Positions 3,911 to 32,773 of a DNA stretch of 37,081 nucleotides are shown here, piece after piece. The DNA is taken from assembly GCA_017409405.1 (NCBI GenBank), contig JAFQSU010000042.1:1-37081 (forward strand). The letters run 5' to 3'. The first letter of the stretch is position 1. Every line of letters starts with the position of its first letter. Origin of the DNA: Oscillospiraceae bacterium (GTDB taxonomy: Bacteria > Bacillota > Clostridia > Oscillospirales > JAAYXM01). The notes under the pieces were generated by a model. It was not told the origin of the DNA. It ran no database searches and worked only from the letters and a program-made list of their open reading frames with translations. The translations under genes and the position numbers were made by a program.

Positions 3911-4345
3911 CTACATAACAAGAAGTATTAAGCCGTATACTACCGATACGGATATACCGATAACAAGCACCGGTCCTGCAAGCTTGAACATATTTGCACA
4001 AAGACCGAGGATATAGCCTTCACTTTTGAACTCAAGGGCTTCCGATACTATTGAGTTTGCAAATCCCGTTATCGGCACAAGCGTTCCTGCACCTGCGTGC
4101 TTTGCAACGGGTGCATACAAGCCAAGCCCGGTAAAGAGCGCAGAAAGACCTATAAGTGTTACGGATGTAGCAGCTGATGCGTTGTCACGGTCAAGCCCGA
4201 AGCCCATGTACATATTTGTGAGAAGCTGACCCAGAACGCATATCGCACCACCTATCACAAAAGCTTTTATGAAGTTTTTAAGATGCGGACTTTTCGGCTC
4301 CGTCTGTTTTACAAACTCCGCATACTCTTTTTTCGACATATTCAT
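3911..4345 (-). CDS. spoVAC: Stage V sporulation protein AC
   Basis: SpoVAC is an integral membrane subunit of the SpoVA complex; the Bacillus protein behaves as a mechanosensitive channel for Ca-DPA release. The 144-residue sequence has several hydrophobic segments and family blocks: KNFIKAFVIGGAICVLGQ, FTGLGLYAPVAKHAGAGT, VPITGFANSIVSEALEFKSEG. Length is close to the family norm. ATG at 4345 is chosen because GGAGAG precedes it by seven to eight bases; an in-frame upstream GTG/ATG extension has no ribosome binding site. First gene of the leftward spoVA operon, divergent from tRNA-Arg. No convincing SigG promoter could be assigned by eye. Confidence 0.93.
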   Translation of the reverse strand: MNMSKKEYAEFVKQTEPKSPHLKNFIKAFVIGGAICVLGQLLTNMYMGFGLDRDNASAATSVTLIGLSALFTGLGLYAPVAKHAGAGTLVPITGFANSIVSEALEFKSEGYILGLCANMFKLAGPVLVIGISVSVVYGLILLVM

Positions 4346-4407
4346 GTATATCACTCTCCACATACGCTATTCTTTTCGTTTGTGCAGATTTTTATACATG
4401 TTTTACC

Positions 4408-15836: not shown

Positions 15837-15853
15837 TTAACCTCCGCTTTATA

Positions 15854-16993
15854 TTATGCGGACGGGTCAGAGTATGTTCGGACAACACGTCTTGAAACCG
15901 AGGTCAGAAGCTCATAGGAAATTGTACCGGAAAGCTTCGCAAGCTCATCGGCGGAGAGAAAAGCGCCGTTCTGTTCGCCAAAGATAACCGCCTCGTCAAA
16001 CGGATGGACATCAGGAATGTCCGTCACGTCTGCAAGCGTCAGGTCCATGCAGATGTTGCCGAGAATCGGAGCGCGTTTGCCGTTTATCAGGAAGAAGCCT
16101 TTGTTTGACAGTGAACGGTGAATACCGTCGGCATATCCGCAAAGAACAACTGCAACCTTCATATCGTGAGGTGCCGTGAAGTTTCGGTTATAGCTCAATG
16201 AATCACCGCGGCGGATGCTTCGGACATCGGCAATGCGGCTTTTGAAGGTCATTACGGGGCGCAGGTCGAGACTGTCAATCGGGTTGCCGTCGGGCGAGCA
16301 GCCGTAAAGGATAAGCCCGGGGCGTACACAGTTCAGATGCGCTTTCTTATAGTTTACCACAGCTGCGCTGTTTGCGCAATGATAAAATTTGAAAGATAGC
16401 CCACGTTTTTCCAGAATACCGCATACTTCAGAGAATGCGAGAAGCTGTTCTTCGGTAAATGCAGAATCGGGGCTTTCGGACTCTGCAAAATGCGTAAAAA
16501 TACCCTCTGCACGCAGGTTTGAAAGCTTTGTAACCGCTTCGGCTTCATTTGCCGCATCGTTTGCAAAACCGTGGTGGGCGTAAATGCCGAGTCTCGACAT
16601 TCCGGTGTCAAGCTTTATGTGAACCGCAAGGGTCTTGCCGGAGCTTTCAAGTGCATCGTTTAATGCTTTTGCATATTCAAGTGAGTGCACCGACTGGATG
16701 ATTCTGTGCTCAGAAAGGATATCTGCACAGTCGGGCGGTGTGGCACCCAAAATCATGACCGGCATTCTGATACCGCTTTCGCGAAGCTCAAGTGCTTCGG
16801 TAAGACAGGCGACGGCAAGGATGTCTGCACCGAGTGATTCGTATAGCTGCGCAAGACGCACGGCACCGTGACCGTAGGCATTTGCCTTTATGACACAAAT
16901 TATATGAGCGGCCGAGGTCATTCGCCGTATTTCCAGATAATTGTGTTTTGCATTTTCGAGGTTGATAAATGCCTCTGCTCTGTTCGGATTCAT
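15854..16993 (-). CDS. alr: Alanine racemase
   Basis: A PLP enzyme interconverting L- and D-alanine for peptidoglycan synthesis; in spore formers it also affects alanine germinant balance. The 379-residue protein has the PLP lysine K36 in VIKANAYGHG and the second catalytic base Y268 in SLSYNRNF. It also has the conserved GMSRLG, NSAA and GNICMDL blocks and a full C-terminal beta domain. The start ATG is near the lipoprotein stop (2 bases between). Member of the leftward nnrD-lipoprotein-alr-mazF operon. Confidence 0.96.
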   Translation of the reverse strand: MNPNRAEAFINLENAKHNYLEIRRMTSAAHIICVIKANAYGHGAVRLAQLYESLGADILAVACLTEALELRESGIRMPVMILGATPPDCADILSEHRIIQSVHSLEYAKALNDALESSGKTLAVHIKLDTGMSRLGIYAHHGFANDAANEAEAVTKLSNLRAEGIFTHFAESESPDSAFTEEQLLAFSEVCGILEKRGLSFKFYHCANSAAVVNYKKAHLNCVRPGLILYGCSPDGNPIDSLDLRPVMTFKSRIADVRSIRRGDSLSYNRNFTAPHDMKVAVVLCGYADGIHRSLSNKGFFLINGKRAPILGNICMDLTLADVTDIPDVHPFDEAVIFGEQNGAFLSADELAKLSGTISYELLTSVSRRVVRTYSDPSA

Positions 16994-30492: not shown

Positions 30493-30521
30493 AGTATATA
30501 TCCAAACTCATTTTATGTCAA
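30493..30521 (-). promoter_or_regulatory. Promoter for the TM2 gene
   Basis: Minus strand TTGACA (30521-30516), 17-base spacer, TATACT (30498-30493). The -35 box overlaps the stop of the preceding DUF2752 gene. Confidence 0.7.
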
Positions 30522-30868
30522 GATATGACGAGGATTCTTAAAAGATTGTACACAAAGCTGAACACGGCGGTAAGTATGCAAAAGACAAGAAGGGGAAGCT
30601 TAAAGCGCCCGAACAGCTTCAGGTGCGGAAAAATAACAAGCATGGCAAGAAGCGGAAGCGCAAAGGGGTTATACGAAAAATAAGCGGCAAAATCACCGCG
30701 CAAGAGCGCAAAAAGCGCCCGTGTAGAGCCACAGCCCGGGCAAGGAAGCCCCGTAAGACGGTTGAACGGACAGTAAATGCGAAAGCGAACGGTTATATAT
30801 AAATAAAGTGCAATAGCAGAAAATACAGCAATATGAAGAATGATAATTTTTACCGCACGACTCCTCAC
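30518..30868 (-). CDS. DUF2752 membrane protein
   Basis: The 116-residue protein has about three membrane helices. It carries the family signature CPFNRLTGLPCPGCGSTRALFALLRGDFAAYFSYNP, with the CPxCGxTRA core. The start is uncertain: GTG at 30868 lies six bases after GAGAGGTG and is preferred over the GTG at 30877 that overlaps that site. Function unknown. Confidence 0.85.
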   Translation of the reverse strand: MRSRAVKIIILHIAVFSAIALYLYITVRFRIYCPFNRLTGLPCPGCGSTRALFALLRGDFAAYFSYNPFALPLLAMLVIFPHLKLFGRFKLPLLVFCILTAVFSFVYNLLRILVIS

Positions 30869-31441: not shown

Positions 31442-31469
31442 ATTATACACGCTTTTGCGGAAAAGTCAA
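31442..31469 (-). promoter_or_regulatory. Promoter for the cyclophilin gene
   Basis: Minus strand TTGACT (31469-31464), 16-base spacer, TATAAT (31447-31442); the -35 box overlaps the tspO stop. Confidence 0.7.
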
Positions 31470-31924
31470 TTTGCAAGGTAAATAAAAAGGTTTAAATATC
31501 CAGCAAAAAGGAGCCACAGAAGATACGGAAGCTGAAGATATGCCGCGAGCTTATCAATTCTAAAAAAGCTTATTATCATAAGAACAACCACTGCAATCAG
31601 GAGAAGAAGCCAGATAAAGGCAAACCCGAAGGCACGCATATTGAAAAAGATAATGCTCCAGAAAAAGTTTACCGCAAGGTTTATTCCGTAAATATAAAGC
31701 GCTTTCGAGCCGGGCTCTTTGAGATACACTCTTGCCGCACCGAGTCCCATAAGTATGAAAAGAATTGTCCAGACAATGGGGAATACTACAGCCGGAGGGG
31801 CAAGGGGCGGCTTTGTTACAGTGTCGAATATATCCATACTGTCTTTTGTGATAAATGCCGAAAGTGCGCCGACACCAAGCGAGATGAGAACGAATATTAT
31901 TTTCGTTTTTAATGTTTTGCGCAT
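31466..31924 (-). CDS. tspO: TspO/MBR family protein (translocator protein)
   Basis: The 152-residue five-helix membrane protein has the family landmarks KPPLAPPAVVFPIVWTILFILMG, a central NFFWSIIFFNMRAFGFAFIWLL and PYLLWLLFAGYLNLFIY. TspO proteins bind porphyrins and related ligands and modulate stress responses. ATG at 31924 follows GGAGAG; the longer in-frame start is rejected. Its ribosome binding site and start codon are buried in a 19-bp-arm hairpin (31915-31959). Last gene of the transporter/ATP-grasp operon. Confidence 0.93.
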   Translation of the reverse strand: MRKTLKTKIIFVLISLGVGALSAFITKDSMDIFDTVTKPPLAPPAVVFPIVWTILFILMGLGAARVYLKEPGSKALYIYGINLAVNFFWSIIFFNMRAFGFAFIWLLLLIAVVVLMIISFFRIDKLAAYLQLPYLLWLLFAGYLNLFIYLAN

Positions 31925-31959
31925 AGAATCACTCTCCCAAAGTAATTCTATGCGCAAAA
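31915..31959 (-). promoter_or_regulatory. Hairpin enclosing the tspO translation start
   Basis: Arms TTTTGCGCATAGAATCACT (31915-31933) and AGTAATTCTATGCGCAAAA (31941-31959) pair over 19 bp with one mismatch and a 7-base loop. In the mRNA the loop holds the GGGAG ribosome binding site, and the 3' arm holds the ATG and first codons. It should block or gate initiation unless opened by upstream ribosomes, a ligand, protein or temperature. No T-run follows, so it is not a standard terminator. Confidence 0.75.
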
Positions 31960-31966
31960 GGTCAAA

Positions 31967-32773
31967 TTATTCCGGTTTCATTTCATTTGTTATATAGTCG
32001 AGATAAAGGGAGACTATATCAATATCATGCGTTGCATAAAGCATGCGTGACCCGACAACATCTTCTATTTCGTTTACCACGGGGCGTCCCTCATGATACA
32101 TTATATCAATACCGCAAAAGTCAAAGTCAAAAAGCTCACACACACGGGACACAAGCGCTTTCTCATCCCCGGAAAGCTTTTTTGCGCAAACCCTTCCGCC
32201 GAGTGAAAAGTTACTGCGAAAGTCACCTTCCGAGGTGCGGAGAACCGCCGCAACGGGACGATTACCGATTATATAAACCCTCATGTCACGACCGGACTCT
32301 GTTGCAAGAGGCTGTATGACATATTCATCCGGCGCAATTGCTTCTCTCGCCGCGCGGTATTCCTCATCGTTTCGTATGAGTGTGACATTTTTGCCGCCGT
32401 GACCGCAGCATGGCTTTATTACAACAGGATACTGTGCGATTTCGGGCGGAATATCTGCCTGATGTGCCGACATCCACGGTATGACGGGAATGTTGTTTTC
32501 ATGGAGATATTCATACGTTCTTGCCTTGTTGTTGCATATGCGTGAAACGTGTGAGTTGTTGAACACACGTTTTCCGAGACCTTCAAGATATTCCGAAATA
32601 TCGGGGCGCATGGCACGCACTATGCAAAAATCGGGAAGCTCGTCGGGAAATCCGTCCTCGCACAGAACAAGTGATATATCAATTCCGCGCTTTTTGCCCT
32701 CTTCAATATACAATCTGATGTATTCACGGTTGCGCCCGGCGCCCTCTTTTTCATAAACAAGCCATGCTTTCAT
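31967..32773 (-). CDS. RimK-like ATP-grasp ligase (second of pair)
   Basis: The 268-residue ATP-grasp protein has ATP-binding lysine segment YPVVIKPCCGHGGKNV (about 121-136), DMRVYIIG, RSNFSLGGR and the metal-binding end GIDIMYHEGRPVVNEIED, the layout of RimK/LysX-type carboxylate-amine ligases. A short pre-ATP-grasp domain precedes it. It starts four bases after the upstream paralogue's stop. Members add glutamate or other amino acids to proteins or peptides; the substrate here is unknown. Confidence 0.88.
   Translation of the reverse strand: MKAWLVYEKEGAGRNREYIRLYIEEGKKRGIDISLVLCEDGFPDELPDFCIVRAMRPDISEYLEGLGKRVFNNSHVSRICNNKARTYEYLHENNIPVIPWMSAHQADIPPEIAQYPVVIKPCCGHGGKNVTLIRNDEEYRAAREAIAPDEYVIQPLATESGRDMRVYIIGNRPVAAVLRTSEGDFRSNFSLGGRVCAKKLSGDEKALVSRVCELFDFDFCGIDIMYHEGRPVVNEIEDVVGSRMLYATHDIDIVSLYLDYITNEMKPE

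Follow-up and report, generated by a model that had tools for sequence, protein, structure and literature searches.

In phage T4, the genes e, soc, 49 and I-TevI have their start sequestered in a long early transcript by a structure whose 5′ strand contains a late promoter, leaving the late mRNA free; for gene e, the repression of the long transcript is about 100-fold (PMC3014915). In Bacillus subtilis, sigG (spoIIIG) lies behind spoIIGA-sigE, and a hairpin of 20 or more bp has been proposed to keep read-through mRNA of the upstream operon from being translated; the mRNA that sigG's own sporulation promoter makes cannot form it (PMC5942855). As for tspO, the subject of the present analysis, the part of PMC3789822 available to us reports that the Clostridioides difficile gene (CD2445) has a sigma-E promoter and stands at 0.07 in a sigE mutant, and it gives ATA as the −35 element of sigma-E promoters, for example in ATA-N16-CATATATA; a start hairpin at this gene is not mentioned in that part. 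Where genes are closely packed, transcription can run from one into the next, a general difficulty for developmental genes, which have to be kept off in growing cells. How does the tspO locus described here compare with these systems?

The window, by which we mean the whole stretch of 37,081 nt that was analysed, comes from a gut bacterium and carries tspO 42 nt behind an ATP-grasp gene on the same strand, with no terminator between the two (Table 1). The initial annotation had placed a hairpin over the tspO start at 31915-31959, and RNA folding together with shuffled sequences confirms the structure at exactly these coordinates. It had been described with arms of 19 bp and a loop of 7 bases, which is the same structure with the two innermost pairs left uncounted: the RNA fold in mRNA sense gives a 21-bp stem including G-U pairing, a loop of GGG, and an outer helix of 5 bp flanking the stem (31966-31962 / 31912-31908). 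The start codon is indeed buried in the stem, while the ribosome binding site, supposed to be in the loop, has only the GGG of GGGAGAGTGA there and its other bases in the stem. The assignment of the ATG is supported by same-genus homologues of about 70% identity, whose alignment begins at residue 1 or 2. With a minimum free energy of −31.7 kcal/mol, a z-score of −8.3 and none of 200 shuffles as good, the hairpin is the strongest start-sequestering one among the 1281 predicted genes of the genome, bar one at a spurious-looking ORF. Two other identities of the hairpin were rejected. An intrinsic terminator does not fit, as the stem has no T-run behind it on either strand, and neither does a dispersed repeat or mobile palindrome, as the arm pattern has, besides its own two arms, matches with two mismatches only in the 1.94-Mb genome, in about the number found for the control pattern.

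Table 1. Features around the tspO start in the window
Feature	Position	Strand	Basis
tspO, TspO/MBR family, 152 aa, ATG at 31924-31922	31466..31924	-	Pfam PF03073, 144.5 bits; start aligned with same-genus relatives
RimK-like ATP-grasp gene upstream of tspO, presumed source of read-through	31967..32773	-	Pfam PF08443, 80.1 bits
Putative −35 element ATA, overlapping the ATP-grasp stop codon	31968..31970	-	Sequence; motif enrichment; consensus in the available part of PMC3789822
Putative −10 element CATAGAAT	31945..31952	-	Sequence; CATAnnnT peak before starts; complement test
Expected start of the sigma-E transcript	31936..31940	-	About 5-9 nt past the −10
5′ arm of the start hairpin, containing the −10	31939..31959	-	RNA fold, z −8.3
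Hairpin loop GGG, where the Shine-Dalgarno (SD) region begins	31936..31938	-	RNA fold
3′ arm: remaining SD bases, ATG and first tspO codons	31915..31935	-	RNA fold
SD region GGGAGAGTGA	31929..31938	-	Sequence; position matches GGAGGTGATT-type SDs of relatives

What, then, is the 5′ arm? Within 31970-31945 of the minus strand lies a promoter motif, ATA-N15-CATAGAAT. Its −10 is an exact reverse complement to ATTCTATG (31929-31922), the octamer that closes with the start codon. CATAnnnT recurs 25-30 nt ahead of the start in tspO relatives, with ATA 15-17 nt farther upstream, and ATA-N14-17-CATAnnnT, which has the form of sporulation sigma-E promoters (PMC3789822), is present in 42 of 104 tspO upstream regions, compared with 2 of 304 other genes at these loci and 0.7% of the shuffled sequences. 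Among promoters placed at tspO and cwlD genes with a slightly relaxed −10, spacers of 15, 16 and 17 occur in 10, 40 and 14 cases, respectively, and the spacer of 15 at the tspO gene of the window is at the short end of this range. The host genome encodes sigma-E (TIGR02835, 363 bits, cut-off 348.6) as well as SpoIIR, SpoVAC, PdaA and SpoIVA, each above its family cut-off. Judged from sequence, the tspO gene of the window thus carries what appears to be the motif of the sigma-E regulon, ATA and CATAnnnT at 15-17 nt, in a host with sigma-E, and it is most likely a mother-cell sigma-E sporulation gene whose own promoter forms the 5′ arm of the hairpin.

Transcription from sigma-E promoters starts about 5-9 nt after the −10. 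Because the start in the window is therefore expected at or beside the loop, the sigma-E mRNA would not contain both arms, and since the 5′ arm looks like a sigma-E-type promoter, the switch is most likely the promoter that made the mRNA. In the mechanism we propose, the promoter sits at the junction of the ATP-grasp stop and the tspO start, its −10 region doubling as the 5′ arm. Sigma-E RNA polymerase would start approximately at the loop and make an mRNA with a very short leader, free of the 5′ arm and translatable, and transcripts running in from the ATP-grasp gene would hold both arms, fold into the 21-bp stem and stay untranslated. In the folding model, the unpaired probability of the AUG is about 0.001 in read-through RNA at 37 °C, and the accessibility of SD and AUG together goes from 0.10 in read-through RNA to 0.45-0.59 in the short RNA. 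It is probable, in our estimation, that the hairpin acts as a translational insulator, silencing read-through mRNA while sigma-E mRNA is translated; in related species the place is taken by a terminator or a different hairpin, or the neighbouring gene is divergent. The translational gating suggested by the initial annotation is retained in so far as a transcript with both arms should hide the start, while the triggers it had suggested for the gate (temperature, ligand, protein or upstream ribosome movement) found no support.

By the folding model, an upstream arm would hide start and/or SD when the transcript is the longer one, and by its motif a developmental promoter would lie inside this arm, as in systems of the T4 gene e and B. 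subtilis sigG type. With T4 gene e, the locus would share a start hidden in the long transcript and a promoter in the 5′ strand, and with sigG a read-through hairpin that should be missing from own-promoter mRNA. Unlike the early/late switch of the phage, tspO would depend on a bacterial developmental sigma factor and have a neighbouring gene as the source of the long transcript. Unlike sigG, which is one regulatory gene under a sigma-F/sigma-G promoter, tspO encodes a membrane protein behind a sigma-E-type promoter, has a −10 in exact pairing with its start codon, and is one of several sporulation genes, in many species, at which similar hairpins are seen. C. difficile tspO belongs to the same gene family and has a sigma-E promoter (PMC3789822).

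Could the hairpin be opened by ribosomes that translate the ATP-grasp gene, making tspO output proportional to that of its neighbour? The two genes are on the same strand, and the ATP-grasp stop codon (31969-31967) is only 8 nt before the 5′ arm, as such coupling would suit. However, a ribosome halted at this stop would, by the usual footprint, open approximately the first 4 of the 21 stem pairs, which also speaks against upstream ribosome movement as the trigger; besides, the design recurs behind other neighbours at distances of 40-280 nt, and coupling has no need of the sigma-E-type promoter found in the arm. Translational coupling is thus quite unlikely. A similarly small chance is given to a role of the palindrome in DNA as an operator for a dimeric regulator, or in read-through RNA as an RNase III site. 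A plus-strand fold and an inverted-repeat search were also run at the hairpin, a near-perfect inverted repeat does span the promoter, and an RNA duplex of 21 bp could be cut; but the arms of different species, and those of different genes in one genome, are unrelated in sequence, contrary to what an operator would require, and cutting by RNase III would supplement insulation, not replace it.

The proposed read-through insulation can be followed in relatives, where gene starts were chosen by simple SD rules and a strong start-sequestering hairpin was defined by a z-score below −3 and at least 7 bases of −16 to +3 paired upstream. Such hairpins are present in 24-25 of 104 tspO genes versus 5 of 304 control genes of the same loci, and many motif-bearing tspO relatives have none. 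Their arm sequences are unrelated between species. The −10 pairs with the start codon in the window and in four relatives (L064, L017, L039 and L043), and the SD is paired instead in L021, L103, L107 and L114. With native arms, a gain of −12 kcal/mol or better is reached in 23% of cases versus 3.3% with arms swapped between species. It might still be that a CATAnnnT −10 near a TATG start simply pairs by chance, without any function: CATA and TATG are complementary, partial pairing is common, and seven of eight bases of −10 and start are complementary in 19 genes versus 17.6 expected. The 7-of-8 count was set aside because it is no commoner than after swapping, and the evidence on −10 and start is drawn only from the 8-of-8 count and the energy tests. 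Full complementarity of all eight bases, however, is seen at 10 of 75 genes, against 2.6 expected by swapping, a count that none of 2000 shuffles reached, the 21 pairs at the tspO gene of the window extend well past the −10, and many hairpins pair the SD, not the start. Together with the recurrence itself and its link to read-through exposure, these observations make a functionless by-product very unlikely. An environmental switch in the tspO leader, namely a thermometer, a riboswitch or a protein-bound RNA, is the least probable explanation and hardly credible, since a very stable hairpin hides the start but the AUG is modelled as still paired at 70 °C (unpaired probability below 0.01) with no melting of the start region up to that temperature, no Rfam model of a riboswitch or leader family matches at E up to 1, and the leader is not conserved between species, the arm sequences differing completely, so that temperature, ligand and protein all lack support as triggers.

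If the hairpins are insulators against read-through, they are expected to be commoner where a close, same-strand neighbour lies upstream without a terminator, and this prediction held. With exposure defined as a same-strand neighbour within 150 nt and no terminator, start hairpins of five sporulation genes are found at 34 of 73 exposed loci versus 23 of 131 other loci; stratified by gene, the link has an odds ratio of 3.6 and p = 2.5e-4, similar at other thresholds, although p-values are optimistic for species that are related to each other. Control genes show no link to exposure, with hairpins at 5 of 129 loci with close same-strand neighbours versus 2 of 88 with divergent ones. At pdaA, the hairpin is not linked to exposure, and some hairpins occur at genes with divergent neighbours.

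Within the genus, the context of tspO was compared in three genomes (G001, G002 and G003), a fourth (G004) being left out as its contig end is too close. In the genome of the window, the ATP-grasp gene lies 42 nt ahead of tspO with no terminator between them, and the hairpin is present; G002 also has the ATP-grasp gene upstream, with a terminator between and without a strong start hairpin; and G001 and G003 have divergent neighbours and again no strong hairpin. Base-for-base conservation of the tspO hairpin was thus not found in the genus, where relatives lack it. The initial annotation had named arms mutating independently in relatives as evidence against its proposal, and had looked to conservation of pairing as support. 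Formally, the arms do behave in this unfavourable way within the genus, and pairing is not conserved there; the loss of the hairpin in these relatives goes along with lost read-through exposure, and more distant species show unrelated arms with their complementarity preserved.

Similar pairing is not confined to tspO. A gain of −12 kcal/mol or better is reached in relatives at 17 of 29 cwlD genes, 9 of 29 spoIIR, 5 of 21 pdaA and 4 of 30 spoVAC genes, and for comparison at 1 of 28 genes for the housekeeping truB. Promoter and hairpin occur together in 26 tspO and cwlD cases, and every one of them has its 5′ arm ahead of the expected transcription start, a result to which the selection itself partly leads. 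In the host genome itself, of which 1.71 Mb was read as stretches, a start hairpin is present at 4 of 16 genes with the motif versus 30 of 1225 genes without it. The four are tspO, one CwlD-like and two SpoVB-like genes, the latter three scoring under the NCBIfam cut-offs of their best families, and other hairpin genes include spoIIR, spoVAC, a SpoIIQ-like M23 gene and a YabP-family gene. From these sequence comparisons, similar locks seem to have arisen independently in many relatives at several sporulation genes. We give about an even chance to the wider proposal that sporulating Clostridia have a general insulator that arose repeatedly at those sporulation genes which are exposed to read-through, in which the promoter region is the anti-start arm and promoter choice decides translation throughout the regulon; as part of this proposal, and with confidence evenly balanced, the −10 CATAnnnT would often pair with the start codon, or else a neighbouring stretch would pair with the SD.

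The principle is already known from T4 gene e and B. subtilis sigG; what appears to be new is how widely it occurs at sporulation genes, together with the link to exposure and the exact complementarity of −10 and start. In the openly accessible literature, we found no report of a read-through hairpin for tspO or throughout the regulon; subscription papers were mostly uncovered, and single genes may have been treated in older work. If the proposal is true, the context of the start would by itself be an aid in predicting sporulation genes, and their start sites, in uncultured Clostridia; start hairpins otherwise taken for thermometers or riboswitches would be explained; and RNA-seq coverage of sporulation genes during growth would not have to imply that protein is made.

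Several other loci came up in the survey. The window also contains spoVAC (3911-4345, minus strand; TIGR02838, 172.9 bits), whose leader, at about 4346-4400, has a start-sequestering hairpin (z −5.3) overlying an apparent sigma-G/F-type promoter (GTATAAA ... AAGAATA). A DUF2752 gene with a GTG start (30518-30868, minus strand) has a terminator-like hairpin upstream (GGTCTGTGGC...GCCACAGACC), after which a second, small hairpin covers the start. Elsewhere in the genome, on L156, the SpoIIQ-like M23 peptidase gene (15848-16615, minus strand) has a sigma-F-like promoter (GGTATAC ... GGGCTAAAATA) inside an SD-hiding hairpin (z −5.8). Finally, a gene on L189 (contig C74, 1668-2036, minus strand) encodes a protein of 122 aa with no Pfam match and has its SD in a hairpin of CCTCCGAATTG / CAATTCGGAGG with the loop GAATAGAATAA (z −7.4); it is possibly an unrecognised sporulation gene.
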